In this document: positions 144 to 28,600 of the stretch, one piece after another
Position numbering within the stretch: position 1 is the stretch's first letter
Layout of the letters: every line of letters starts with the position of its first letter
Assembly: GCA_023299935.1 (NCBI GenBank)
Contig: JALZVV010000027.1
Coordinates: 1-40,603, forward strand
DNA length: 40,603 nucleotides
Direction: 5' to 3'
Source: Dokdonia sp.
GTDB lineage: Bacteria > Bacteroidota > Bacteroidia > Flavobacteriales > Flavobacteriaceae
Position numbers and translations under genes: made by a program
The notes under the pieces: model-generated
Databases searched by the model: none
What the model was told of the DNA's origin: nothing
Seen by the model: only the letters and a program-made list of their open reading frames with translations

Positions 144-1040
144 TTATTTTCCCGTTAATTCCAAAAACAAGCCCTCTAAACTCGCATTCTTCTGATTGAG
201 CTGCAAGATTTTAAGCTCATTATCATGCGCAAAGTCAAAAACCGTAGCTCGCATATCATCCTGAGTATCAAAAGTAATCTCGTATACAAAATCGTGGGTA
301 TTCTTCACGGTACTTACATGCGCCAGTCGTTCTAAAGCTACTGTCTCTATACGATAGTCAAACTCCACAATAACCGTTTGCTGTTGTCCTTCTCGTAGCT
401 CGTCTATTTTTTTATCGGCTACCAGCTGTCCTTTATTAATAATAATCACGCGGTCACAAATGGCTTCTACCTCCTGCATAATATGGGTGCTCATCAATAC
501 GGTTTTGGTCTTACCTATATTCTTAATTAGCGAGCGAATCTCTAGTAATTGATTAGGGTCTAATCCCGTTGTAGGCTCATCCAGTATCAATACTTCTGGG
601 TCGTGTAATAATGCATTAGCCAGTCCTACACGCTGGCGATAACCTTTAGAGAGTTGATTGATTTTTTTATGGGCTTCTGGAGTAAGTCCTGTAAGCGCAA
701 TCACTTCTTGGATTCTACTTTTGGGTGTGCCGTATATATTAGCATTAAACTGCAAATATTCCCGCACATACATATCTGTGTATAGCGGATTATGTTCGGG
801 TAGGTAGCCTACAGATTTCCGGACTGCTTGAGCGGCGTTTATAATATCGTGTTCATTCACCTTTGCACTGCCTTGGGAAGGCGGGATATATGTGGTAAGG
901 ATTTTCATTAAGGTAGATTTTCCTGCACCATTAGGTCCTAAAAAGCCTACGATTTCGCCTTTGGCAATATCAAAAGAAATCGTGTCCAATGCCAATTGGT
1001 CGCTATAGTTTTTAGAAATGGCAGAAACAGATATAGACAT
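144..1040 (-). CDS. gldA: Gliding-motility ABC transporter ATP-binding protein GldA
   Basis: ORF 298 aa; Walker A GPNGAGKST, signature LSKGYRQRVGLA, Walker B VLILDEPTTGLDP; overall sequence matches the GldA subfamily. Confidence 0.88.
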   Translation of the reverse strand: MSISVSAISKNYSDQLALDTISFDIAKGEIVGFLGPNGAGKSTLMKILTTYIPPSQGSAKVNEHDIINAAQAVRKSVGYLPEHNPLYTDMYVREYLQFNANIYGTPKSRIQEVIALTGLTPEAHKKINQLSKGYRQRVGLANALLHDPEVLILDEPTTGLDPNQLLEIRSLIKNIGKTKTVLMSTHIMQEVEAICDRVIIINKGQLVADKKIDELREGQQQTVIVEFDYRIETVALERLAHVSTVKNTHDFVYEITFDTQDDMRATVFDFAHDNELKILQLNQKNASLEGLFLELTGK

Positions 1041-1166: not shown

Positions 1167-1201
1167 TTGGGCAGTTCAATTTTTTGTGTACATTAGCCTT
1201 G
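1167..1201 (+). promoter_or_regulatory. Possible Bacteroidota-type promoter for the phe leader (TTG-N24-TAGCCTTG)
   Basis: TTG 1167-1169 and TAGCCTTG 1194-1201 (consensus TAnnTTTG); spacer slightly long; just upstream of the leader ORF. Confidence 0.4.
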
Positions 1202-1213
1202 TAACAATTCATA

Positions 1214-1288
1214 ATGTTAAAAAAAGTTTATTATAATAGCGGTTATTTCTTTTTCTATAGTAGGAAAAAGACAGAACTGATATGGTGA
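1214..1288 (+). CDS. Leader peptide MLKKVYYNSGYFFFYSRKKTELIW, putative attenuation leader of the aromatic amino-acid operon
   Basis: ATG 1214, TGA 1286-1288; 8 of 24 residues aromatic including YY and YFFFY; followed by a terminator hairpin upstream of pheA. Confidence 0.8.
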   Translation: MLKKVYYNSGYFFFYSRKKTELIW

Positions 1289-1311
1289 TAAGTAAATACT
1301 CAAAAACCTTT

Positions 1312-1342
1312 AAAAGTTCTGATGCAAATCAGGACTTTTTTT
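1312..1342 (+). terminator. Rho-independent terminator/attenuator hairpin upstream of pheA
   Basis: AAAAGTTCTGAT-GCAA-ATCAGGACTTTTTTT; stem plus T tract; CAGAACT at 1272-1278 can pair with AGTTCTG at 1315-1321 as an antiterminator. Confidence 0.8.
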
Positions 1343-1373
1343 GTTTTAATGGGGTATTAAGAAATAGAAAAAT

Positions 1374-2201
1374 ATGTCTAAGTGTATTGCTATACAAGGG
1401 GTGAAAGGTTCTTTTCATCATAAAGTTGCTCAATCCTATTTTGGGGAAGGAGTGGCGGTATTAGAATGTGATTCTTTCCCGCTACTGGTAGATGCCTTGC
1501 TCACTAATGAGGCGACAGATGCTATTATGGCGATAGAGAATTCTATTGTAGGGGCAATCTTGCCTAACTATACCTTGATAGACGCACATGATTTGCATAT
1601 AGAAGGGGAGTTTTATCTAAATGTGCAACATCATCTTATGGCATTGCCTGGACAAAGCATAGCGGATATTAAGGTAGTATGGTCACATCCTATGGCTTTA
1701 TTACAATGCCGTCCATTTTTTAAACAGTACCCACATATTAAATTGGTAGAAGCGACAGATACGGCTGGAGTAGCCCGACAGCTACAAGCAGAAAATTTGA
1801 ACGGAATAGCAGCCATTGCCAGTAATACTGCAGCAGAGATTTATAAGTTGGACATACTTGCACAAAGCATACAAACTAGTAGCACGAATGCCACTCGATT
1901 TTTTGTACTTAATATTCAAAAAGGAACAAGCAATACAGCAGCAGCTAAAGCCTCTTTACGTTTTACTACAGACCATAAACGCGGGAGTTTAGCGACGATA
2001 CTCAATGTGATGAGTGATTGCAAACTCAATCTTACTAAAATTCAATCCATGCCTATTATAGAGACTCCTTGGAAATATGCTTTTTTTGTAGATGTTACCT
2101 TTGCCGATTATGAAGATTATAACAAGGCAAAGAAAGTATTGCAGATTATGGCGACAGATGTCAAAGTTTTAGGAGAATATCAAAACCAAAAGAAGTCATG
2201 A
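1374..2201 (+). CDS. pheA: Prephenate dehydratase
   Basis: ORF 275 aa; periplasmic-binding-like PDT domain (GVKGSFHHKVA, AIENSIVGAI, TRFFVL) followed by an ACT domain (RGSLATILNVMSDCKLNLTKIQSMPI). Confidence 0.92.
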   Translation: MSKCIAIQGVKGSFHHKVAQSYFGEGVAVLECDSFPLLVDALLTNEATDAIMAIENSIVGAILPNYTLIDAHDLHIEGEFYLNVQHHLMALPGQSIADIKVVWSHPMALLQCRPFFKQYPHIKLVEATDTAGVARQLQAENLNGIAAIASNTAAEIYKLDILAQSIQTSSTNATRFFVLNIQKGTSNTAAAKASLRFTTDHKRGSLATILNVMSDCKLNLTKIQSMPIIETPWKYAFFVDVTFADYEDYNKAKKVLQIMATDVKVLGEYQNQKKS

Positions 2202-3364
2202 AAGCGGCTCGCAGACTAGAACATATTAAGGAATACTACTTTTCGCGCAAGCTTAAAGAAGTACGGGGGCTTATGGCCCAAGGCCACGATATTATCAATA
2301 TGGGAATAGGCAGTCCTGATTTACCTGCGCCGGCAGCGGTGGTGACCGCCTTACAAAAAGCCTTAGGAGATGCGACAGCACATCAGTATCAGAGTTATAC
2401 AGGCTTAGCAGAATTTAGGGAGGCGATAGCACAGTTTTATGAGCGTCACTATCAGGTAAACTTGGATGCCAGCACAGAGATTCTGCCTTTAATGGGTTCT
2501 AAAGAGGGGATTATGCATATAAGTATGGCCTTGCTCAATCCTGGCGATGAGGTACTTATTCCCAATCCTGGGTATCCTACCTATAGCGCAGTAACCCAAC
2601 TGGTAGAGGCAGTGCCGGTAACGTATGATTTAGATGCAGCTACTAAGTGGTTGCCGGATCTAAAACAACTAGGACAGCGAGATCTGAGCAAGGTAAAATT
2701 GATGTGGCTTAATTATCCACATATGCCTACTGGTGCCCAAGCGTCTAGTGGGTTTTATGAGGAGCTTATTGCTTTCGCGAAAGCGCACGACATTATACTC
2801 ATTAATGATAATCCGTACAGTTTTATACTTAATGATCATCCACAATCCATCTTAAGCGTGACGGGTTCCAAAGCGGTAGCCCTCGAACTGAATTCTATGA
2901 GCAAGTCCTTTAATATGGCTGGCTGGCGTGTAGGGATGGTCATGGGGAATCCTACTTTGATAAACGCCATTCTCAAAGTAAAATCCAATATGGACAGTGG
3001 TATGTTTTATGGTATCCAAAAAGGAGCCATAGCCGCTTTGCAACTGGATAGCGATTGGTTTACGTCTATAAATACAGTCTATGCAAAACGTAGGTTGCTG
3101 GTCTGGCAACTAGCCGAAAAACTAGGCTGCTCTGTAGATAAAAACAGTACAGGACTCTTTGTATGGGCAAAATTACCCGAAGGCAAGATGGCAGAACTAA
3201 CGATAGATAATTTATTAAAAGAAAAAGGGCTGTTTGTTGCTCCAGGAACCATTTTTGGGAGTCAGGGCGAAGGGCATATTCGGTTTTCTCTATGTGTAAG
3301 CCAGGAGCGAATACAAGAAGCGATAGCACGAGTGTCACAAGACAATAGTGAGCATAGATTATGA
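2198..3364 (+). CDS. Class I/II pyridoxal-phosphate aminotransferase (aromatic/aspartate type)
   Basis: ORF 388 aa; PLP-Lys motif NSMSKSFNMAGWRVGM; ATGA overlap with pheA. Confidence 0.92.
   Translation: MKAARRLEHIKEYYFSRKLKEVRGLMAQGHDIINMGIGSPDLPAPAAVVTALQKALGDATAHQYQSYTGLAEFREAIAQFYERHYQVNLDASTEILPLMGSKEGIMHISMALLNPGDEVLIPNPGYPTYSAVTQLVEAVPVTYDLDAATKWLPDLKQLGQRDLSKVKLMWLNYPHMPTGAQASSGFYEELIAFAKAHDIILINDNPYSFILNDHPQSILSVTGSKAVALELNSMSKSFNMAGWRVGMVMGNPTLINAILKVKSNMDSGMFYGIQKGAIAALQLDSDWFTSINTVYAKRRLLVWQLAEKLGCSVDKNSTGLFVWAKLPEGKMAELTIDNLLKEKGLFVAPGTIFGSQGEGHIRFSLCVSQERIQEAIARVSQDNSEHRL
2771..2784. repeat. GCTTTCGCGAAAGC palindrome, copy 1 (inside aminotransferase CDS)
   Basis: Exact 14-bp palindrome. 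Confidence 0.95.
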
Positions 3365-4212
3365 AAAAGATACAGATTATAGGCGTTGGATTAATAGGAG
3401 GTTCGTTTGCAAAAGACCTGCGCATTCTCTTCCCTAAAGCCGAAATTATGGGTATTGACTCTAATCCTGGCCATATCAAAGAAGCGATTGCTCTTGGGGT
3501 GATTGATAATGAAGGAAGTATTACTGCTTTACAAGATGCAGATGTTGTGGTATTAACAATACCTGTAGATGTGGCCACCCAGGTATTACCAGAAGTACTG
3601 GGTAATATAGGAGCAGATACTATTGTTCTAGATATGGGTTCTACTAAAGCCGCTATTTGTGCCAGTGTAGCGACACATCCTAAGCGCAGGAATTTTATGG
3701 CTTGTCATCCCATTGCAGGAACTGAGTTTTCTGGACCTAGCGCTGCGATCGAGGGCCTGTATACGGGTAAGACCAATATCATTTGTGAGGTGGAGAAAAC
3801 CGCTTTTAAGCTTCAAGAAAAGGCTTTGGAGATATTTAAGAAGCTGGATATGCGCATTAGATATATGGAACCTCAAGCCCACGATAGGCATATTGCTTAT
3901 ATGTCGCATCTATCGCACATCAGTGCTTTTATGCTTGGAAAAACAGTAATCGATAAAGAAAAAAACGAACGTGATATTTTTGATATGGCAGGCAGTGGTT
4001 TTGAATCTACCGTACGTTTAGCAAAGAGTAATCCAGTGACCTGGACGTCTATCTTTGCGCAGAATAAAGAGAATATATTAGAAACATTAGAGGAGTATAT
4101 CGCAAATCTGGAACACTTTAAAGGGCTGATGGAGTCAGATAACTTTGAAGGTGTATTTCAAGAAATGCAGGATACCAATCATATTAAAGAGATATTAAAA
4201 GGAATTAACTAA
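3361..4212 (+). CDS. tyrA: Prephenate dehydrogenase
   Basis: ORF 283 aa; Rossmann GVGLIGGS, HPIAGTEFSGP; ATGA overlap with the upstream gene. Confidence 0.92.
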   Translation: MKKIQIIGVGLIGGSFAKDLRILFPKAEIMGIDSNPGHIKEAIALGVIDNEGSITALQDADVVVLTIPVDVATQVLPEVLGNIGADTIVLDMGSTKAAICASVATHPKRRNFMACHPIAGTEFSGPSAAIEGLYTGKTNIICEVEKTAFKLQEKALEIFKKLDMRIRYMEPQAHDRHIAYMSHLSHISAFMLGKTVIDKEKNERDIFDMAGSGFESTVRLAKSNPVTWTSIFAQNKENILETLEEYIANLEHFKGLMESDNFEGVFQEMQDTNHIKEILKGIN

Positions 4213-4251: not shown

Positions 4252-5331
4252 ATGGAGAACAAGAAAGAATTGAGAAACTGGTTAGATGCCTTTGGGTTAG
4301 ATCACCCATTAGTAATAGCAGGTCCTTGTAGTGCAGAGACAGAAGCACAAGTGCTTAAGATTGCACACCAACTTAAAGATAGTGATGCTACCGTATTACG
4401 AGCGGGAATCTGGAAACCGAGAACACGCCCAGGAAATTTTGAAGGGGTAGGAGCTTTAGGTTTAAAATGGCTTCAAAAAGCCAAAGAAGAAACAGGCATG
4501 CTTACCACTACAGAAGTGGCTAATGCAAATCACGTAGACCTCGCCCTAGAAGCAGATATTGATATCCTGTGGATAGGAGCACGTACCACCGTATCACCGT
4601 TTATTGTGCAGGATATTGCAGATGCCTTAAAAGGAACCGATAAAACGGTCTTGATAAAGAATCCTGTGAACCCAGACTTAGCACTATGGTTAGGTGCTGT
4701 AGAGCGTTTTTATACGGCAGATGTGAAGAATTTAGGAGTGATTCACAGAGGTTTTTCTACCTATGAAAAAACCCGATACAGAAACAATCCAGAATGGCAA
4801 ATTGCCGTAGATCTTCAGAATAGATTTCCAGATTTACCTTTAATACTAGACCCTTCACATATTGCGGGACGTCGTGATATCATCCAAGATTTAAGTCAGA
4901 CGGCTTTAGATCTTAACTATGATGGATTAATGATAGAAACCCATTATGATCCAGATAATGCGTGGAGTGATGCCGCACAGCAAATCACGCCAGAAACCCT
5001 CATCCAGATGATGGTAGATCTTAAAATACGGGAAGAAGAAGGACAAGAAATTGAGTTTAAAAACAAACTCAATACGCTGCGTACCCAAATCAATGTCGTA
5101 GATCAACAACTCATAGAGAGCCTAGGGAAACGTATGAATATAGCCGATGAGATTGGATTGCTTAAAAAAGAAAATAATGTGGCTATCCTTCAAACCAAAC
5201 GCTGGAACGAGATATTAGGCAAGATGATTTTAGAAGGGGAGCAACATAATTTAAGTGAAGAATTTATCTTGAGAGTATTTAAAGCAATCCACCAAGAGTC
5301 TATTAATCATCAACAAAAAATAGGTTCTTGA
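4252..5331 (+). CDS. Bifunctional 3-deoxy-7-phosphoheptulonate synthase / chorismate mutase
   Basis: ORF 359 aa; DAHP synthase (IAGPCSAE, RAGIWKPRTRPGNFEG, DPSHIAGRRD) plus C-terminal AroQ-type mutase (NTLRTQINVVDQQLIESLGKRMNIADEIGLLKK). Confidence 0.93.
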   Translation: MENKKELRNWLDAFGLDHPLVIAGPCSAETEAQVLKIAHQLKDSDATVLRAGIWKPRTRPGNFEGVGALGLKWLQKAKEETGMLTTTEVANANHVDLALEADIDILWIGARTTVSPFIVQDIADALKGTDKTVLIKNPVNPDLALWLGAVERFYTADVKNLGVIHRGFSTYEKTRYRNNPEWQIAVDLQNRFPDLPLILDPSHIAGRRDIIQDLSQTALDLNYDGLMIETHYDPDNAWSDAAQQITPETLIQMMVDLKIREEEGQEIEFKNKLNTLRTQINVVDQQLIESLGKRMNIADEIGLLKKENNVAILQTKRWNEILGKMILEGEQHNLSEEFILRVFKAIHQESINHQQKIGS

Positions 5332-5420: not shown

Positions 5421-6371
5421 ATGACAGGAACGGTATACAAATCTACAGGAAGTTGGTACACAGTTAAGACTAAAGAAGGTCTTTATCTAGACTGTCGTAT
5501 CAAAGGGAAGTTTAGAATTCAGGGTATTAAGAGTACAAATCCTGTAGCTGTAGGTGATACGGTAGATTTTGATATCGATAAAAAAAGTGATGTAGAGACG
5601 GGGGTGATTACTAATATCCATCCAAGAGAAAATTACATCATAAGAAAATCTGTTAACCTCTCTAAGCAAACGCATATTATTGCGGCTAATATTGATCAAG
5701 TATTTTTATTAGTAACGCTTAATAACCCACCCACGTTTACTGCCTTTATTGATCGTTTTCTTGTTACGGCAGAAGCTTACGGTATTAAAGCCATTTTACT
5801 TTTTAATAAAATTGATACTTACACAGAAGAAGAGCTTCTAGAAATCAAGTATCTGGCGGCCTTATACCGAGACGTTGGTTACGAATGTGTGGGTATATCT
5901 GCTTTAAAGGAAAAGAATCTTGAAGAAGTTAAAAAACTAATGGAGGGTAAGGTAAATATGTTTACCGGTCATAGCGGAGTGGGTAAATCTACTTTAGTAA
6001 ATGCCATCGAACCATCATTGGATATAAAAACTAAAGCGATAAGCCTGCAGCATATGCAGGGTCAACATACCACCACCTTTGCAGAAATGTATGATTTGCA
6101 GTTTGATGCAAAAATTATAGATACCCCTGGTATTAAAGGGTTTGGTATTGTAGATATGGAACGCGAGGAGATCGGTAATTATTTTCCAGAATTCTTTGCG
6201 TTAAAGAGTCAATGTAAGTTTAATAACTGTCTCCATTTAAAGGAACCAAAGTGCGCCGTTAAAGATGCTTTAGATAATGACGAGCTGCATTGGTCACGTT
6301 ATAAAAGTTACCAGCAAATTATGGAAGGTGATCAAGAGCATTATCGCAAAGACAATTACGGGCAAGAATAA
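5421..6371 (+). CDS. rsgA: Ribosome small-subunit-dependent GTPase A
   Basis: ORF 316 aa; circularly permuted GTPase motifs NKID ... GHSGVGKST ... DTPG; C-terminal Cys/His zinc site (CKFNNCLHLKEPKC). Confidence 0.93.
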   Translation: MTGTVYKSTGSWYTVKTKEGLYLDCRIKGKFRIQGIKSTNPVAVGDTVDFDIDKKSDVETGVITNIHPRENYIIRKSVNLSKQTHIIAANIDQVFLLVTLNNPPTFTAFIDRFLVTAEAYGIKAILLFNKIDTYTEEELLEIKYLAALYRDVGYECVGISALKEKNLEEVKKLMEGKVNMFTGHSGVGKSTLVNAIEPSLDIKTKAISLQHMQGQHTTTFAEMYDLQFDAKIIDTPGIKGFGIVDMEREEIGNYFPEFFALKSQCKFNNCLHLKEPKCAVKDALDNDELHWSRYKSYQQIMEGDQEHYRKDNYGQE

Positions 6372-6374
6372 GAT

Positions 6375-6827
6375 ATGAGGGTAGTTATACAACGTGTTTC
6401 TGAAGCGGCTGTAACCATAGACGGAACGGTTAAAGCACAAATAGGGCAGGGTTTTATGGTGTTACTGGGGATCACCGCTACAGATACCCAAGAAGATATT
6501 GAGTGGCTTACAACTAAGATTAAGGGAATGCGCATTTTTAATGATGAGCAGGGTGCTATGAATCTTTCCTTAGAGCAAACTGGAGGAGAGGTGCTTGTTG
6601 TGAGTCAGTTTACGCTCTATGCCAGTACAAAAAAAGGCAATAGACCTTCTTTTATTAATGCAGCCCGACCAGAAATTGCAATCCCTTTATATGAAGAATT
6701 TGTGAATACGCTTTCGCGAAAGCTGAACAAAAATGTCCAAACAGGTACATTTGGAGCAGATATGAAAGTGAGTTTAGTAAATGATGGGCCAGTTACGATT
6801 TTTTTAGATACAAACAAAAAGGATTAG
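6375..6827 (+). CDS. dtd: D-aminoacyl-tRNA deacylase
   Basis: ORF 150 aa; MRVVIQRVSEAAVTIDG, VVSQFTLYA, NDGPVTI motifs. Confidence 0.94.
   Translation: MRVVIQRVSEAAVTIDGTVKAQIGQGFMVLLGITATDTQEDIEWLTTKIKGMRIFNDEQGAMNLSLEQTGGEVLVVSQFTLYASTKKGNRPSFINAARPEIAIPLYEEFVNTLSRKLNKNVQTGTFGADMKVSLVNDGPVTIFLDTNKKD
6710..6723. repeat. GCTTTCGCGAAAGC palindrome, copy 2 (inside dtd)
   Basis: Exact 14-bp palindrome. Confidence 0.95.
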
Positions 6828-6877
6828 CGTTTGTAGAACAAATTAAGTATTAATACTTTAGACTCATATATTAAATT

Positions 6878-8782
6878 ATGAACAGCCTAAAATATCTTGC
6901 CATATTATTTTTTTGTAATGCATTAAACGGGAATTCGCAAATAGATGACCTGAGTTTATCTGCCATAGACAAAACACTACTTGATAATGCCAATAGTGTT
7001 GTGCGATTGGATAAAAAAATAATTTCGATACCAAATAGACAAACTATTGAAGTAACCACAACACGCATTGTTACAGTAATCAATAAAAATGGAAATAAAA
7101 TAGTTAATGCCTTTAAAAATTATGATAACCATACGCGCATAAAGAGCATAGAAGCAGTTGTTTATGATAAATCAGGTAAAGAAATAAAGGAATTTAGTAA
7201 ACGAGATTTTAAAGACGTGGCTGCCGTAGATGGTATAAGTCTTTTTACTGATTCTAGAGTCAAATATTTAGACTATACCCCCACTAATTATCCATATACT
7301 GTTGTTTTTAAGAGCGCTACAGTTTCTAAAAACACGGCCTTTTTGCCTTCGTTTTATGCAAATTCTGGATACTTGTCCAGTACAGAAAAAGGATATATTG
7401 AAATTAATTATAAAGCAGACTTAGGTCTGAGGTCTAAACTATTGGGACCTAAGGATGTGATTGAAACATCTGAGGAAGAGGGTAAATTTATTTATCAAGT
7501 TGAGAATGTATTACCCATTAAAGCAGAACCTTATAGTCCTGGGTTTCAGAAAATAGTAGCCAAGGCACTTTTCTCTTTAGATTATTTTCATTTATCTGGT
7601 GTGGACGGAGAAGCCACAAGTTGGGGAGAATTTGGGAAATGGATGGACACAAACTTATTAGCGGGGACAAGAGAAATTCCAGAAAAAACAAAAAGCGATA
7701 TAAGGAAGCTAGTAGATGGGATTGAAAAGGATTCAGAAAAAGTAAGGCTTATCTATGAATATATGCAAGAGAGAACCCGCTACATTAGTGTTCAAGTGGG
7801 AATTGGAGGATGGAAGCCTATGATGGCTTCAGATGTAGATGAATTGGGATATGGCGATTGTAAAGCACTTTCTAATTATACTAAATCTTTGCTGGAAGTA
7901 GCAGAGATACCTTCCTATTACACCATACTCTATGGTGATCAGGATAAAAGAGATATTCAAAAAGATTTCCCTTCTTTACAGGGTAACCACGCCATTCTAG
8001 GCGTGCCTATTGAAGATGATTATATCTGGTTAGAATGTACAAATCAGAATGTACCTTATGGTTTTATCGCTGATTTTACAGATGATCGAGATGTACTCGT
8101 TATTACTCCAGAAGGGGGTAAAATAGTGCACACTAAGATTTACGCAGAGCAGGATAATAGCCAGTTTATAGAAGGAGAATTTACCATAAATGAAGAAGGC
8201 GATATAAATGCTAATGTTAGCATGATATCTAAAGGGACGCAATACGATGATAGATATGAGGTACAGCGCTATACAGAAGACGATAAAAAAACACATTATT
8301 ATAATTTCTGGAAGTATATAAACAATATGTCTTTAGATAATATCAAAATAACAGAGGATAAAGAAAAGGCAGAGATTGTAGAACAAATTACGTTTAATGC
8401 AGATAAGTATGCCAGCTTTGCTGGTGAAGAAATGTTAGTGACATTAAATATTTTTAATAGATTTAGAAACCAACCCAGTAAGAATAAGAATAGATTGCAT
8501 GATGTTGAAATAGACAGAGGATTTAAAGATGTAGATAAGGTGACTATTCATATTCCTGATGGGATGAGCGTGCAATCAGTGCCAGAAGATTATTCCATTT
8601 CGGGAGATTTTGGCAGTTATAGTTATAGTGTAGAACAAGTCTCAGATAAAGAGTTATTGTACAACCGTTCTTTTACTTTTGAAGAAGGTTCATACAGTAG
8701 TGAACAATTTGAAGCATTTAGAAAATTTCTAAAAAATGTTGTTCGTCAAGATAACCAAAAGATAGTATTACTTAAAAAATAA
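6878..8782 (+). CDS. DUF3857/transglutaminase-like domain exported protein (catalytic Cys and His present)
   Basis: ORF 634 aa; signal peptide; YGDCKALSNYTKSLL and GNHAILGVPI typical of transglutaminase-like fold. Confidence 0.8.
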   Translation: MNSLKYLAILFFCNALNGNSQIDDLSLSAIDKTLLDNANSVVRLDKKIISIPNRQTIEVTTTRIVTVINKNGNKIVNAFKNYDNHTRIKSIEAVVYDKSGKEIKEFSKRDFKDVAAVDGISLFTDSRVKYLDYTPTNYPYTVVFKSATVSKNTAFLPSFYANSGYLSSTEKGYIEINYKADLGLRSKLLGPKDVIETSEEEGKFIYQVENVLPIKAEPYSPGFQKIVAKALFSLDYFHLSGVDGEATSWGEFGKWMDTNLLAGTREIPEKTKSDIRKLVDGIEKDSEKVRLIYEYMQERTRYISVQVGIGGWKPMMASDVDELGYGDCKALSNYTKSLLEVAEIPSYYTILYGDQDKRDIQKDFPSLQGNHAILGVPIEDDYIWLECTNQNVPYGFIADFTDDRDVLVITPEGGKIVHTKIYAEQDNSQFIEGEFTINEEGDINANVSMISKGTQYDDRYEVQRYTEDDKKTHYYNFWKYINNMSLDNIKITEDKEKAEIVEQITFNADKYASFAGEEMLVTLNIFNRFRNQPSKNKNRLHDVEIDRGFKDVDKVTIHIPDGMSVQSVPEDYSISGDFGSYSYSVEQVSDKELLYNRSFTFEEGSYSSEQFEAFRKFLKNVVRQDNQKIVLLKK

Positions 8783-8798
8783 CTAAACATCAATTATT

Positions 8799-10805
8799 AT
8801 GAACAAATTATTGCTTTGCCTGTTAATCGTTTTATGCAGTGCGACTTTTTATGGACAAGATTATAAGTATGGAAAGGTGTCTAAAGAAGAATTATCTCAA
8901 ACCCAACATCCATTAGAACCAGATGCAAGTGCTGCTGTTTTATATAGAGAGTCGTACACAAATTTTAATTATACGCAAGATGATGGATTTGTGTTGCAAA
9001 CTAAAGTTCTTGAGCGTATCAAAATATATAAACAAGAGGGATATGATTATGCGACCATAAGTAAAGGAATGTATCGAGGAGGTAGTTCCAAAGAAGAAAT
9101 TTCTGGATTAAAGGCTGTTTCTTATAATCTTGTAGATGGTAAAATAGTAGAGAGTAAGTTACAAGGTAAGAATATCTTTAAAGAAGAAGTTAATAAGACA
9201 AGAAATGTATTGAAATTTACAATGCCTGATATTAATGACGGAACCATAATAGAGTACAAGTATACATTCATTTCTCCTTTTATATCCAGTATTGATGAGT
9301 ATGTTTTTCAAGAGGAAATCCCAGTAGATAAGGTGGCAATGCGTTTTCTCGCTCCAGAGTATATGATTTATAAACCTTATGGAAAGGGATCGATACCGTT
9401 AAATATGAAAGCTGAGTCAAAGAAAAGATCTGTGAATTATCGATATGAAACATCTGATGGGCCTAATGCCAGTGATATTGCTAGAGGTAATGCAACTCTT
9501 GAATTTGATGAGAATGGACAAAGCGTTAGTATTTCTAATATTCCATCCATTAAAGAAGAACCTTTTTCTACAAATCAAAATAATTATGCCTCCGGCTTAC
9601 AATTTGAGTTAGCATACACTCAATTTCCTAACTCACCGGTTAAGAATTATGCCACTACCTGGGAGAATGTGGCTAGTGAAATCTATAAGTCAGATCAGTT
9701 TGGAGGGGAATTAAAAAAACAAAAATACTTTAAAAAAGATATTGATGCCCTTGTGTCTGATGTGAGCAATGCTAGTGAAAAAGCAATTAAGATTTTTGAG
9801 TTTGTAAAGCAAAAAATGAATTGGAATGAATATTATGGAGTGTATTCTGACGAAGGTGTTAAAAAGGCATATAACGAGGGAGTAGGCAATGTAGCAGATA
9901 TCAACCTGATGCTAAATGCAATGCTTAACTATGCAGGTATAGAATCTAGTCCTGTGCTTGTAAGTACCAAGGCTAACGGCATCTCTTTTTTTCCCACCAG
10001 AACAGGATTTAATTATGTGCTTGCTGGCGCCAAGATTGATGGTAAGCTATATCTAATGGATGCCGTAGATAAAGAAGGTGTAGTCAATATACTTAAACCA
10101 GAACTGCTTAATTGGAAAGGGCGTATGGTAAAGGCAGATGGTTCTTCACGACTTGTAGAACTCTATCCTAGTACACCTGCGATGCACAATAGTATGGTAG
10201 ATATTACCATTACTGAGGATCTTGATATTGATGGAAAGTCCCAAAACAGATATTCTAAACATTATGCTAAGAGTGAAAGGAATAAATTCCTTTTTGTGGA
10301 CAGTGAAGATCAATTAAAAAGACTTAACGATAGGTATAAGAGTATTGATGTTGTGGAGCATACTTTTAAAGATTTAAAAGCGGTTAATAAACCCTTATCT
10401 ATTGAATATGATTTTGAAGCAGAAGGGGCTATAGAAGAGATAGGGGGTAAATTATATATAACACCGCTTTTACATCTGGCTACGGAGACAAACTTTTTTA
10501 AAGGCGAAACGCGCAACGCGCCAATAGATTTCGGCTATTCCTGGGCAGATCGGTATATCGTTAATATCAATATACCTGAAGGATATGAAGTAGAGTCTAA
10601 ACCCGAAGACCTAGCCATTAATCTAACTGAGAATATGGGTTCTTACAGGTTTAACATTAATCAAGTAGGAAAAAAACTCTCAATTTCTTTACAGAACTCA
10701 ATAAATACCCCTGTTATATCTCCTTCGTTTTATAAAGATTTACAAGCCTATTTCACAATGATTGTAGAGAAGGAAGCTGAGAAAGTTGTACTTAAAAAGA
10801 TTTAA
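8799..10805 (+). CDS. DUF3857/transglutaminase-like paralogue, probably catalytically inactive
   Basis: ORF 668 aa; signal peptide; aligned site GNVADINLMLNAML lacks Cys. Confidence 0.8.
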   Translation: MNKLLLCLLIVLCSATFYGQDYKYGKVSKEELSQTQHPLEPDASAAVLYRESYTNFNYTQDDGFVLQTKVLERIKIYKQEGYDYATISKGMYRGGSSKEEISGLKAVSYNLVDGKIVESKLQGKNIFKEEVNKTRNVLKFTMPDINDGTIIEYKYTFISPFISSIDEYVFQEEIPVDKVAMRFLAPEYMIYKPYGKGSIPLNMKAESKKRSVNYRYETSDGPNASDIARGNATLEFDENGQSVSISNIPSIKEEPFSTNQNNYASGLQFELAYTQFPNSPVKNYATTWENVASEIYKSDQFGGELKKQKYFKKDIDALVSDVSNASEKAIKIFEFVKQKMNWNEYYGVYSDEGVKKAYNEGVGNVADINLMLNAMLNYAGIESSPVLVSTKANGISFFPTRTGFNYVLAGAKIDGKLYLMDAVDKEGVVNILKPELLNWKGRMVKADGSSRLVELYPSTPAMHNSMVDITITEDLDIDGKSQNRYSKHYAKSERNKFLFVDSEDQLKRLNDRYKSIDVVEHTFKDLKAVNKPLSIEYDFEAEGAIEEIGGKLYITPLLHLATETNFFKGETRNAPIDFGYSWADRYIVNINIPEGYEVESKPEDLAINLTENMGSYRFNINQVGKKLSISLQNSINTPVISPSFYKDLQAYFTMIVEKEAEKVVLKKI

Positions 10806-10807
10806 CT

Positions 10808-11134
10808 ATGAATATATCTAATGCCCAAGAAGCTGTAGATCAATGGATCAAACAGCACGGAGTACGTTATTTTAATGAGCTTACTAATATGGCGCAACTC
10901 ACCGAAGAAGTAGGAGAGGTTGCTCGTATTATTGCGAGACGTTATGGAGAACAGAGCGAAAAAGAAAGTGATAAAAACAAAGACCTGGGCGAGGAGCTTG
11001 CAGATGTTTTATTTGTAGTATTGTGCCTAGCCAATCAGACAGGTGTAAACCTTCAAGAGGCGTTTGATAAAAAGCTCGATATCAAAACAGATCGTGATCA
11101 CGATAGACATCATAATAATCCAAAGCTAAAATAA
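10808..11134 (+). CDS. MazG-like nucleotide pyrophosphohydrolase
   Basis: ORF 108 aa; EEVGEVAR ... DLGEELADVLFVVLCLAN, all-alpha NTP-PPase EExxE/ExxD motifs. Confidence 0.88.
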   Translation: MNISNAQEAVDQWIKQHGVRYFNELTNMAQLTEEVGEVARIIARRYGEQSEKESDKNKDLGEELADVLFVVLCLANQTGVNLQEAFDKKLDIKTDRDHDRHHNNPKLK

Positions 11135-11146
11135 GCCAGTAGGCCT

Positions 11147-12394
11147 ATGCTTCTTCAATTACATCAGATAGATATGCTTAATGCTAAGCATATAAAAATT
11201 ACAGGTTCTAAAAGTGAAACCAATAGGTTATTGATGCTTCAATCCCTATTTAAGGGTTTTGAAATCCATAACCCTTCTAATAGTGATGATGGGACGTTAA
11301 TGCGGGATGCCTTAACGACTAATGATACCGTTGTAGACATTCACCACGCAGGAACAGCAATGCGCTTTCTTACGGCCTATTTTGCAATACAAGAAGGCAG
11401 AGAGACTATATTAACGGGTAGTGACAGAATGCAACAACGCCCTATTCAGATTTTAGTAGATGCTTTACGATCTCTGGGCGCAATGATTACTTATGAGAAA
11501 AATGAAGGATATCCTCCCATTAGAATTCAAGGAAAAACGCTAGTACAAAACCAGGTTCAGCTCAAGGCTAATGTGAGTAGTCAGTATATATCTGCTCTTA
11601 TGCTTATAGGAGCGAGTTTCAAAAATGGTCTAGAGATACACCTAGAAGGCAAAATTACATCTGTGCCTTATATCAATATGACACTCCAGTTGTTGCAGCA
11701 ATTGGGTATTAACGCCCATTTTCAAGGGCAAAAGATAGTAGTAAACCCCTTTGTTCAAGCCCCAAAACTCAAGGAGATAACTGTAGAATCTGACTGGAGT
11801 AGTGTATCCTATTTTTATAGTATTGTTATGCTTTCGCGAAAGCATAATCTAAATATTCAAATACGCGTATCTAGTTATAAGAAAGATAGTCTGCAAGGAG
11901 ATGCAGCATTGCAAGAATTGTATGCCTCATTAGGAGTTCAATCTAGATTTGAAGATCATACACTAGTGCTATCCCTAATAGATGATTTTAAGAAGCCGGA
12001 AAACATAAGCTTTGATCTTTCAAATACTCCAGATATTGCTCAAACCATTGCAGTAAGCTGTTTGGGTTTAGGTATAGGTTGCACACTAAGTGGTTTGCAC
12101 ACGCTTAAAATTAAGGAAACAGACCGTCTAGAAGCACTTAAAACCGAAATTACCAAACTAGGAGGTGGTATTGAAGTGACTAATGATACGCTTGTACTAG
12201 AGGCTCAAAAAGAACCTTTACATAGAGATATCACTATTGCTACGTATCACGATCATCGTATGGCAATGGCTTTTGCGCCACTAGCCTTATGCACCACCTT
12301 AAAAATAGAAGATGCTGGAGTAGTCTCTAAATCATACCCAGACTTTTGGGAGGATCTAGAAGCATTGGGATTTTCTTTTGAGATAATTGAGTAA
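11147..12394 (+). CDS. aroA: 3-phosphoshikimate 1-carboxyvinyltransferase (EPSP synthase)
   Basis: ORF 415 aa; SKSETNRLLML, HAGTAMRFLTAYF, IKETDRLEAL, DHRMAMAFAPL. Confidence 0.9.
   Translation: MLLQLHQIDMLNAKHIKITGSKSETNRLLMLQSLFKGFEIHNPSNSDDGTLMRDALTTNDTVVDIHHAGTAMRFLTAYFAIQEGRETILTGSDRMQQRPIQILVDALRSLGAMITYEKNEGYPPIRIQGKTLVQNQVQLKANVSSQYISALMLIGASFKNGLEIHLEGKITSVPYINMTLQLLQQLGINAHFQGQKIVVNPFVQAPKLKEITVESDWSSVSYFYSIVMLSRKHNLNIQIRVSSYKKDSLQGDAALQELYASLGVQSRFEDHTLVLSLIDDFKKPENISFDLSNTPDIAQTIAVSCLGLGIGCTLSGLHTLKIKETDRLEALKTEITKLGGGIEVTNDTLVLEAQKEPLHRDITIATYHDHRMAMAFAPLALCTTLKIEDAGVVSKSYPDFWEDLEALGFSFEIIE
11826..11847. repeat. GCTTTCGCGAAAGC palindrome, copy 3 (inside aroA), extended to 22 bp TTATGCTTTCGCGAAAGCATAA
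   Basis: Exact palindrome. Confidence 0.95.
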
Positions 12395-25609: not shown

Positions 25610-25633
25610 AGTCCGCTTTCGCGAAAGCGGACT
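25610..25633. repeat. GCTTTCGCGAAAGC palindrome, copy 5 (intergenic, abutting the stop of the phosphorylase gene), extended to 24 bp
   Basis: AGTCCGCTTTCGCGAAAGCGGACT, perfect palindrome. Confidence 0.95.
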
Positions 25634-28600
25634 TATTTTAATATACTCTCATCTATAGTAATTTGTAGGTCTTTTATCACTCCCTCACGATGAAAGAGTG
25701 CTCTACTTGTTTCTTTATCTATAGTTTTTCCTGTAAAATCCTTAGCCGTGCCATCTTGATAATTCACCCGAATACTAGCACTAGAACCCATTTTATAAAT
25801 AACAGGCACCTGGCAGTAGGTGAAGCCTAAGGAATTTACTTCTAAGTTTGTTTGTTGTGTTTTTCCGCTTAGGTCCACATAGGCAAATTCTTGTGGGCTC
25901 GTTAGAAACTCTGATTTTCTAAGCATATCTGGTGAGAACTGTAAACTCCCTTCCTTAACAAAAACGCCTAATTCTCCAAACCTACTTAAAATGTCTTCTT
26001 TTACTTGACCTGTCATTCCTGGCTGTTGGGCTCCTTTTCCTCCTGGTGTATGACTGTAGGGATCGGTAGGGAAAGCTCCATATAATTCTGGAGATTTCTG
26101 GACACCAATACCTGCATTAATTTCGTAATAGTGTTCCAAGAGTTTTCCAACAACCTCATCGCTTGCACCTTGATTTATTGCCTGAAGGCAACATTCTTGA
26201 ACAGCTAATAATAGCTTGGAAACCATATGCCAGTAGATAGACCCTAATCCTTCATATCCATAAAAGGTGCCTGATCTTCCCGTAAAGGCTTTGTGATTAA
26301 AGACTTGTTCATAGGTATCTAATATGTATTGTCTTTCTTTTTTGATATGTTCGTTATATCCAGAATCACTTAAATGATCTAAGGCGTCATTTAACTTTGT
26401 AGCATTATTAAAATTGCCATTAAAGTGATACTTTCCTTTGCTATCTTTTTCTATAATGCGAGTATCTCCTTGGTTAAGAAGCTCTTGAAATAATGAAGAG
26501 CCTAAAACTGTTTTTTTAGGAATTGTATTCTTCTCTAAAAATTTAGGCAGATTCTTATTGGGGTATAAAATATAACTGTACTGATCTTCTCTAAATAATG
26601 CACTACTCTTAAGTGCATCGAGTACCGCAAGGTTTTCTTTAGGACTTAAATAACCAGAACTTAAAACACTTACTTGACCTTCAAGCATTTCATCTAAATA
26701 GCTTATCGCTACCTCAGTATCTGAACTTAGGGTCATTAAATTATAAGCGTGGTAGAGCTTGTCTTCTCTTTGGTTAGCATCTATAGTATGGTCGATATAG
26801 GCTAATGTGGTTTGCACAAAAGAACTAATTTCCAAGAGCGATAAATTATTTTTTTCTCCAGAGAATTCCTGGGTATAGATGGTATTTCTAAAAGCACTTC
26901 CGGCTAATCCCAAGCCATCTAGAATAGACTTTCTATCCTTGTCAGAAATGCTCCCGTCCAAAGTATTTTTATGGATATCTAAGGTCTCTACAACACTTGA
27001 GAAAAAGCTATGCAATTCCTTAGAAACTTTAGTTTCAGTGAGGCTACTATTTTCTAAAGTAGTCCCAAAAAACTTTAAAAATCTTCTTAAATAGTAAAGG
27101 GTTACCATAGAAACGCCATTGCCTACTAAAGCATTATTGGCATCATTCCATTCTGGACGTTGTGTATTGAGCCATATACCAGCTTCAGGAATAAAATTAG
27201 ACACTTTTGCAAGTACGGTAGCTAAGATTTTTTCTATGAAATTTACGTTGTGAATTATACCAGTAGTATCTCTAAGTAGTGCCCCATCAACACCCTGTTT
27301 CTCACGACGCTTGCTTATGATTTCATCCAGTTCAAAATCAAAATCTATCGTATCTTTAGGATTCTTAAGGATATCTTGATAACTCTTAATCTTGTAAGGC
27401 ACATTAGCATATACAAATAGATTTTGATTGAAATAACTCTCCAATCTTCCTGGAGTATGATTTTCAATAATCTCTAGGAATTTTTGTAAGTAAATAATTT
27501 GATGATCTCCCCAATACCCTATGTAGGACCACGGATCATCTTCTTCTATAGTCTCCCAATCAAAACCATCTTTGGTCACACGATAGGGGTTGTACCCATC
27601 AAAAGTTGTTGCATTCAAGAACTTATGAATCATACTCTCTATAAAGTCTGGATAGGAGAGGGCAAGTGCTTCCCAATTCTGAAATATGTCTCTCCAGTTA
27701 CCTTGATAATCCAATACTTTAGAGCCATCCAACTCATTTCTAGTATTGATAGAAAATTTATTCCAAGGTCTACTTGGATCTCCATGTCTTCTACTAAACT
27801 TAAGAGGCATATACTCTGAGCATAATCTCTTAAAATGTTGATTTTCGTTTTCAGCAGCAATTTGCTTTAACTGGCCAAGTGTAAAAGTCGGTGCTAGGCC
27901 TTCTATTATATATTGATGGGATGTATATACTGCGGTATTAGCTTTCTTTAAATAAGCATCAAAATCCCATTTTTCTATAGTATAGTTATTATCAAATATC
28001 CCACCTCTCATAATATTAAAGAGGGTATTTGAAAAATGCCTGGCGTTTCTTAGTGTATTGTCACTTAATTGCATGGCATCAGACGCTCCCGCAAGTTTTA
28101 ATAGATGTTGCGTGCCTTTCTCTATATCTAGCTCAATGAGCTCTCTTAGATTGGGAGAAGAAACAATGGCTTGACTAGTAGCTGTTACTGCACTGGCATT
28201 TTGATTTAAATCTGCAACAAAAAGCCAATCCTTTTTCATACTAGGATCTAGGCTTACATCTGCAACTACAAAATAAGCCCCTCGTTCTGCTTTTATGTCT
28301 GTTTCTTGAACTAAAGTACCGCCCTGTCTAAAGTGATTTAATTGCTTTGAAGAAACTAAATAGGTAGGATTTTGTAGTCCTAGAGACCAAACAATATTAC
28401 TTTTTAAAGCTTCACTTGGCTCTGCTTTATCAACAATTATTGCGCTTAGCGCGAAAACACCTAAGCCTGATTCCAGCAGAAGTTCGTTACGTTTATATGC
28501 ATCTACAAGATTACTACTAGCTTTTTGCAAATCTTCTCCTACGCCATAAGGAAGAATGTTTTGAAGCCCATCTAATAAACTAATATTAAGAGGGCTTGAA

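Follow-up and report, generated by a model that had tools for sequence, protein, structure and literature searches.

Organization of the pheA locus

The window analysed here is a stretch of DNA of 40,603 nucleotides from Dokdonia sp. (assembly GCA_023299935.1, contig JALZVV010000027.1), in which pheA is followed on the same strand by genes for an aminotransferase, TyrA and a DAHP synthase, and is preceded by a short ORF and a terminator. The features are as follows, with the basis of each assignment in brackets where one applies.

144-1040, minus strand: gldA, the divergent upstream neighbour (NCBIfam)
1167..1169, plus strand: putative -33 element TTG of a Bacteroidota sigma-A promoter (TTG-N19-TA spacing)
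1189..1196, plus strand: putative -7 element TACATTAG, of the TAnnTTTG type (recurrence in relatives and the consensus in PMC9723704)
1214..1288, plus strand: leader peptide ORF, MLKKVYYNSGYFFFYSRKKTELIW (translation of the window sequence)
1229..1258, plus strand: control codons YY...YFFFY, the putative stall site, including part of region 1 (1:2 pairing)
1272..1278, plus strand: region 2, predicted 5' arm of the antiterminator, CAGAACT, within the leader ORF
1312..1342, plus strand: intrinsic terminator (regions 3:4) with T tract (terminator scan, fold and covariation)
1315..1321, plus strand: region 3, predicted 3' arm of the antiterminator, AGTTCTG, shared with the left arm of the terminator
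1374..2201, plus strand: pheA, prephenate dehydratase without a fused chorismate mutase (best NCBIfam model below its curated cut-off; Pfam PDT above cut-off)
2198..3364, plus strand: pyridoxal-phosphate aminotransferase, probably aromatic (NCBIfam, family level; substrate from operon context)
3361..4212, plus strand: tyrA, prephenate dehydrogenase (NCBIfam NF006307, above cut-off)
4252..5331, plus strand: DAHP synthase fused to chorismate mutase (NCBIfam, two domains, both below curated cut-offs)

The four genes from pheA to the DAHP synthase/chorismate mutase gene are nearly or fully contiguous, and since the enzymes they encode synthesize Phe and Tyr and supply the common pathway, a Phe/Tyr leader fits their position. 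Because gldA is divergent, the terminator cannot belong to the upstream gene and would act only on a transcript running into pheA. Past the operon, genes continue on the same strand from 5421 to 12394 (rsgA, a probable D-aminoacyl-tRNA deacylase by our own reading, a DUF3857 protein, a second large protein, MazG and aroA); the last of these, encoding EPSP synthase, is another aromatic-pathway gene and lies ~6 kb beyond the operon. Three large proteins elsewhere in the window (932-1169 aa; 25633-29142, 32502-35618 and 36080-38878) had no Pfam match at 1e-10.

A putative promoter and an aromatic-rich leader ORF

Transcription is predicted to start at about 1200-1204, leaving a 5' untranslated region of ~10-14 nt. 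The promoter call rests on position and on conservation of the -7 box, not on the spacing pattern; TTG-N19-TA matched 17 times in the window versus 16 expected and so is not rare by chance, while most Flavobacteriaceae loci have TACTTTAGC/TACATTAGC shortly upstream of the leader ATG. TAnnTTTG is the type of -7 consensus given in PMC9723704.

The leader ORF is preceded by no Shine-Dalgarno sequence and ends in a TGA at 1286; 8 of its 24 residues are aromatic (4 Y, 3 F, 1 W), the sole Trp being the last residue and a central Trp being absent. Its densest 12-codon stretch holds 7 aromatic codons, a level that is unique in the 40.6-kb window, and the 24-aa peptide found no match in NCBIfam. In its richness in codons for the end products of the operon, Phe and Tyr, this short ORF has the composition by which attenuator leaders are recognized.

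Alternative folds of the leader transcript

Within 900-1600 there is only one terminator-like site, the hairpin AAAAGTTCTGAT-GCAA-ATCAGGACTTTT with its T tract, which begins at 1312. Region 2 is complementary over 7 bp to region 3; its start is 16 nt from the first nucleotide of the final aromatic codon, and it occupies the stretch 8-14 nt ahead of the leader stop codon. The ORF, the terminator and the two complementary segments had each been placed here by a preliminary description of the window, and the sequence and the terminator scan recovered all of them at the same positions. The complementarity of regions 2 and 3 in the window is by itself weak evidence, because about 5% of shuffles reach the same match. 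The fold of 1203-1345 as a whole was stabler than all 200 shuffles (z = -3.5).

Varying the position of the ribosome in truncated folds gave the two outcomes that the preliminary description had anticipated; when the ribosome was stalled, the lowest-energy structure of the RNA as far as region 3 was the antiterminator (-11.7 kcal/mol), and placing the ribosome at the stop codon yielded the terminator. With both arms present, the terminator equalled or exceeded the antiterminator in predicted stability at equilibrium (-16.9), so that antitermination must be kinetic, decided during RNA synthesis, as in known attenuators. We reasoned that region 2 would be free when a ribosome is stalled at the control codons and covered when it sits at the stop codon, an argument for which the size of the ribosome footprint is taken from general knowledge.

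A structured 5' region linked to a terminator might also be expected if pheA were under a metabolite riboswitch or a T-box. A search of the window against Rfam returned no family at the gathering threshold, including RF01859 and RF01692, and nothing relevant up to E = 10, where hits were at chance level; as a positive control, the E. coli leader scored 132 bits against RF01859 (Phe_leader). The 5' half of the region is coding, moreover, and its structure is limited to the 1:2, 2:3 and 3:4 set, which leaves control by riboswitch or T-box exceedingly improbable.

Conservation of the leader among Bacteroidia

Regions upstream of pheA were taken from 60 relatives, from 80 named genomes and from a class-wide sample, with three loci being duplicates. 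An aromatic leader was present in 138 of 154 of these regions. Leader, terminator and pairing of regions 2 and 3 were detected by script in 134 loci, and hairpins were visible in four more, the terminator script having overlooked four clear ones (L049, L050, L052 and L075). All 18 Dokdonia genomes and most of the Flavobacteriaceae examined carry the leader together with terminator and antiterminator, as do 16 of the 26 Bacteroidia sampled outside that family (L133, L136-L139, L141, L144-L148 and L150-L154), four of which (L138, L144, L145 and L154) have just 5-6 aromatic residues per 12. Of 152 pheA upstream regions, 118 contain an ORF in which 8 or more residues of a 12-codon stretch are aromatic, against an expectation of 0.2 by first-order Markov resampling; the reverse complement gave none. 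In the part of the ORF upstream of region 2, pN/pS was about 0.23 (from pairs that are not independent), by which measure the leader ORF is under coding constraint. Phe and Tyr occur in the leader cores of all 134 loci, and Trp in 89 of them.

The element is absent from a few of the relatives compared (L024, L036, L044, L045 and L109). In one of these (L024, genome G030), the 450 nt upstream of pheA contain no leader but tandem-like repeats that include palindromic CCCGCC..GGCGGG units, which suggests replacement or displacement of the attenuator by the repeats. A leader was likewise not found upstream of prephenate dehydratase genes in those other classes of the phylum that were examined, nor in family f7, which has another PheA type. 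Genomes of 0.6 Mb from the order (L205, L207, L209-L211, L213, L215, L216 and L218) encode a prephenate dehydratase with no aromatic leader upstream, consistent with a loss of amino-acid regulation; the enzyme of these reduced genomes is mostly of the IAIQG type.

Covariation and geometry of regions 2 and 3

Across the 134 loci, 74 distinct region 2/region 3 helices were counted, among them CAGAACT/AGTTCTG in the window, TCAGGAC/GTCCTGA in the nearest relative, CGAGAC/GTCTCG in Algibacter-like genera, ACGGGACT/AGTCCCGT and GAGCGGTC/GACCGCTC. Since regions 2 and 3 were picked as the best pairing at each locus, helix counts, spacings and per-locus folds are biased; the counts of paired and changed positions, which came from an alignment of 20 loci constructed independently of the pairing, are less affected. 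Another alignment, in which four sequences had region 2 one column off, was excluded from these counts, and a swap test that took in every locus is weakened by common descent. In the 20-locus alignment, 95.7% of antiterminator cells were paired, as opposed to 21-49% when the arms were offset by 1-3 columns. Changes on both sides (AU to GC) affect two of the seven antiterminator pairs, amounting to 12 cells versus a shuffled mean of 2.8, with none of 500 shuffles as high. The terminator showed compensatory changes likewise. Covariation and truncated folds together bear out the claim that terminator and antiterminator are mutually exclusive, and the aromatic ORF and antiterminator pairing, whose lack of conservation in relatives had been named beforehand as a refutation, proved to be conserved with compensatory changes.

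Measured from the first nucleotide of the final aromatic codon, region 2 started after 12-14 nt (interquartile range across loci), and it lies near the leader stop codon, inside a ribosome footprint. Truncated folds gave the same result as in the window, with the antiterminator forming under a stalled ribosome in 130 of 134 loci and the terminator under a ribosome at the stop codon in all 134; 1:2 pairing was predicted in 124 of 134.

If the terminator were constitutive or controlled by a protein, the short ORF would be incidental or would encode a functional small protein; a strong terminator before pheA suits this explanation, as does the fact that stalling is predicted. The aromatic codons are nevertheless kept while Phe, Tyr and Trp interchange (174 aromatic-to-aromatic swaps versus 156 synonymous changes among leader codons), the ORF, region 2 and the terminator are similarly spaced from locus to locus, and regions 2 and 3 covary, all of which makes such an arrangement very unlikely. 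Leader ORFs can also work by reinitiation, as hypothesized in PMC4833913, so that the leader peptide might exert its control mainly through translation reinitiation or Rho in place of intrinsic termination; yet 85 nt separate the leader stop codon from the pheA start in the window, and the intrinsic terminator is conserved along with its T tract, so that we give this route very little probability.

A model for attenuation upstream of pheA

Conservation, coding constraint, covariation and geometry support the reading of the region as a leader-peptide attenuator, and in its anatomy, as judged from sequence, it is very probably a classical ribosome-mediated transcription attenuator upstream of the aromatic operon. 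Transcription would begin about 10-14 nt upstream of the leader ATG, and ribosome-polymerase coupling is assumed to operate in Bacteroidota. If charged Phe- or Tyr-tRNA is lacking, the leading ribosome would stall at YY/YFFFY and leave region 2 free to pair with newly made region 3 ahead of synthesis of the terminator's right arm; with the antiterminator formed, RNA polymerase would proceed into the pheA, aminotransferase, tyrA and DAHP synthase genes. When the tRNAs are charged, the ribosome would reach the TGA and cover region 2, upon which the terminator would form and transcription would end. In the absence of translation, the 1:2 hairpin would sequester region 2 and termination would follow; the same hairpin might pause the polymerase.

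Relation to other attenuators

The source assembly (2.6 Mb, 85% complete) contains further candidates. The trpE leader MRNNTVHTWWWNLQQPLS (L157:756-873, contig C160) matches RF01692, Bacteroid-trp, at 57.7 bits against a threshold of 49, and hisG is preceded by a His leader, MQKINLHHHHFTLVARSR (His4), and then a terminator (L155, minus strand, about 2204-2080, contig C138), identified by direct reading of the sequence; the hisG leader gave no Rfam match at the gathering score. A search of the same 85% complete assembly at ilvD found nothing. At least three leader-peptide attenuators (trp, his and phe) are therefore predicted in one Dokdonia genome. The Bacteroid-trp leader is likewise an aromatic-pathway leader-peptide attenuator of the same phylum, but it has Trp codons, precedes trpE and forms a separate sequence family.

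With E. coli pheL-pheA (RF01859), the Dokdonia element shares an aromatic leader peptide, an antiterminator of regions 2:3 opposed to a terminator of 3:4, and pheA downstream. Measured by the same method, region 2 of pheL starts 11 nt past the last Phe codon, compared with 16 in Dokdonia, and it lies after the stop codon in pheL but inside the ORF in Dokdonia. The codons of pheL are for Phe only, whereas the Dokdonia leader mixes Phe and Tyr, with Trp added in many relatives. E. coli PheA carries a fused chorismate mutase, and the tyrA gene there is encoded on the opposite strand, in contrast to the Dokdonia operon, which adds the aminotransferase, tyrA and DAHP synthase. The ilvGMEDA and thr leaders of enterobacteria, which carry codons for several amino acids, are alike in being multivalent; theirs are branched-chain or Thr/Ile rather than aromatic codons. 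A comparative attenuation study of 2010 reportedly may include Bacteroidetes.

The only earlier report bearing on a pheA attenuator in Bacteroidota that we found in the literature is the 2021 transcriptome paper on Flavobacterium psychrophilum (PMC9723704), which describes structured 5' elements at pheA and hisG that are conserved in further Flavobacteriaceae genera and hit no Rfam family, and which proposes leader-peptide attenuation for amino-acid operons on "strong clues". The pheA element there concerns the same gene in the same family, and its main-text description includes neither a peptide nor an antiterminator or covariation. That paper's listing of the element and its proposal, together with the cover that RF01692 gives to the trp attenuator, make the novelty of the present finding modest; an attenuator is very probably present in this flavobacterium, as the preliminary description held, and leader-peptide attenuation has precedent in flavobacteria. 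The present analysis contributes the peptide itself, its mixture of Phe, Tyr and Trp codons, the covariation and geometry, and a record of how far the element extends through Bacteroidia, where its conservation across much of the class had hardly been documented.

These results place a well-supported attenuator family, absent from Rfam, at the main aromatic amino-acid operon in much of Bacteroidia. Attenuators need a first ribosome that keeps pace with RNA polymerase, and the family therefore offers a direct handle on transcription-translation coupling in Bacteroidota, where initiation independent of Shine-Dalgarno pairing is the setting of the question. We see even chances that these leaders constitute an old and widespread multivalent family of Bacteroidia outside Rfam, joining Phe, Tyr and often Trp codons in one leader, whose function would imply close coupling of ribosome and RNA polymerase during Shine-Dalgarno-less initiation.
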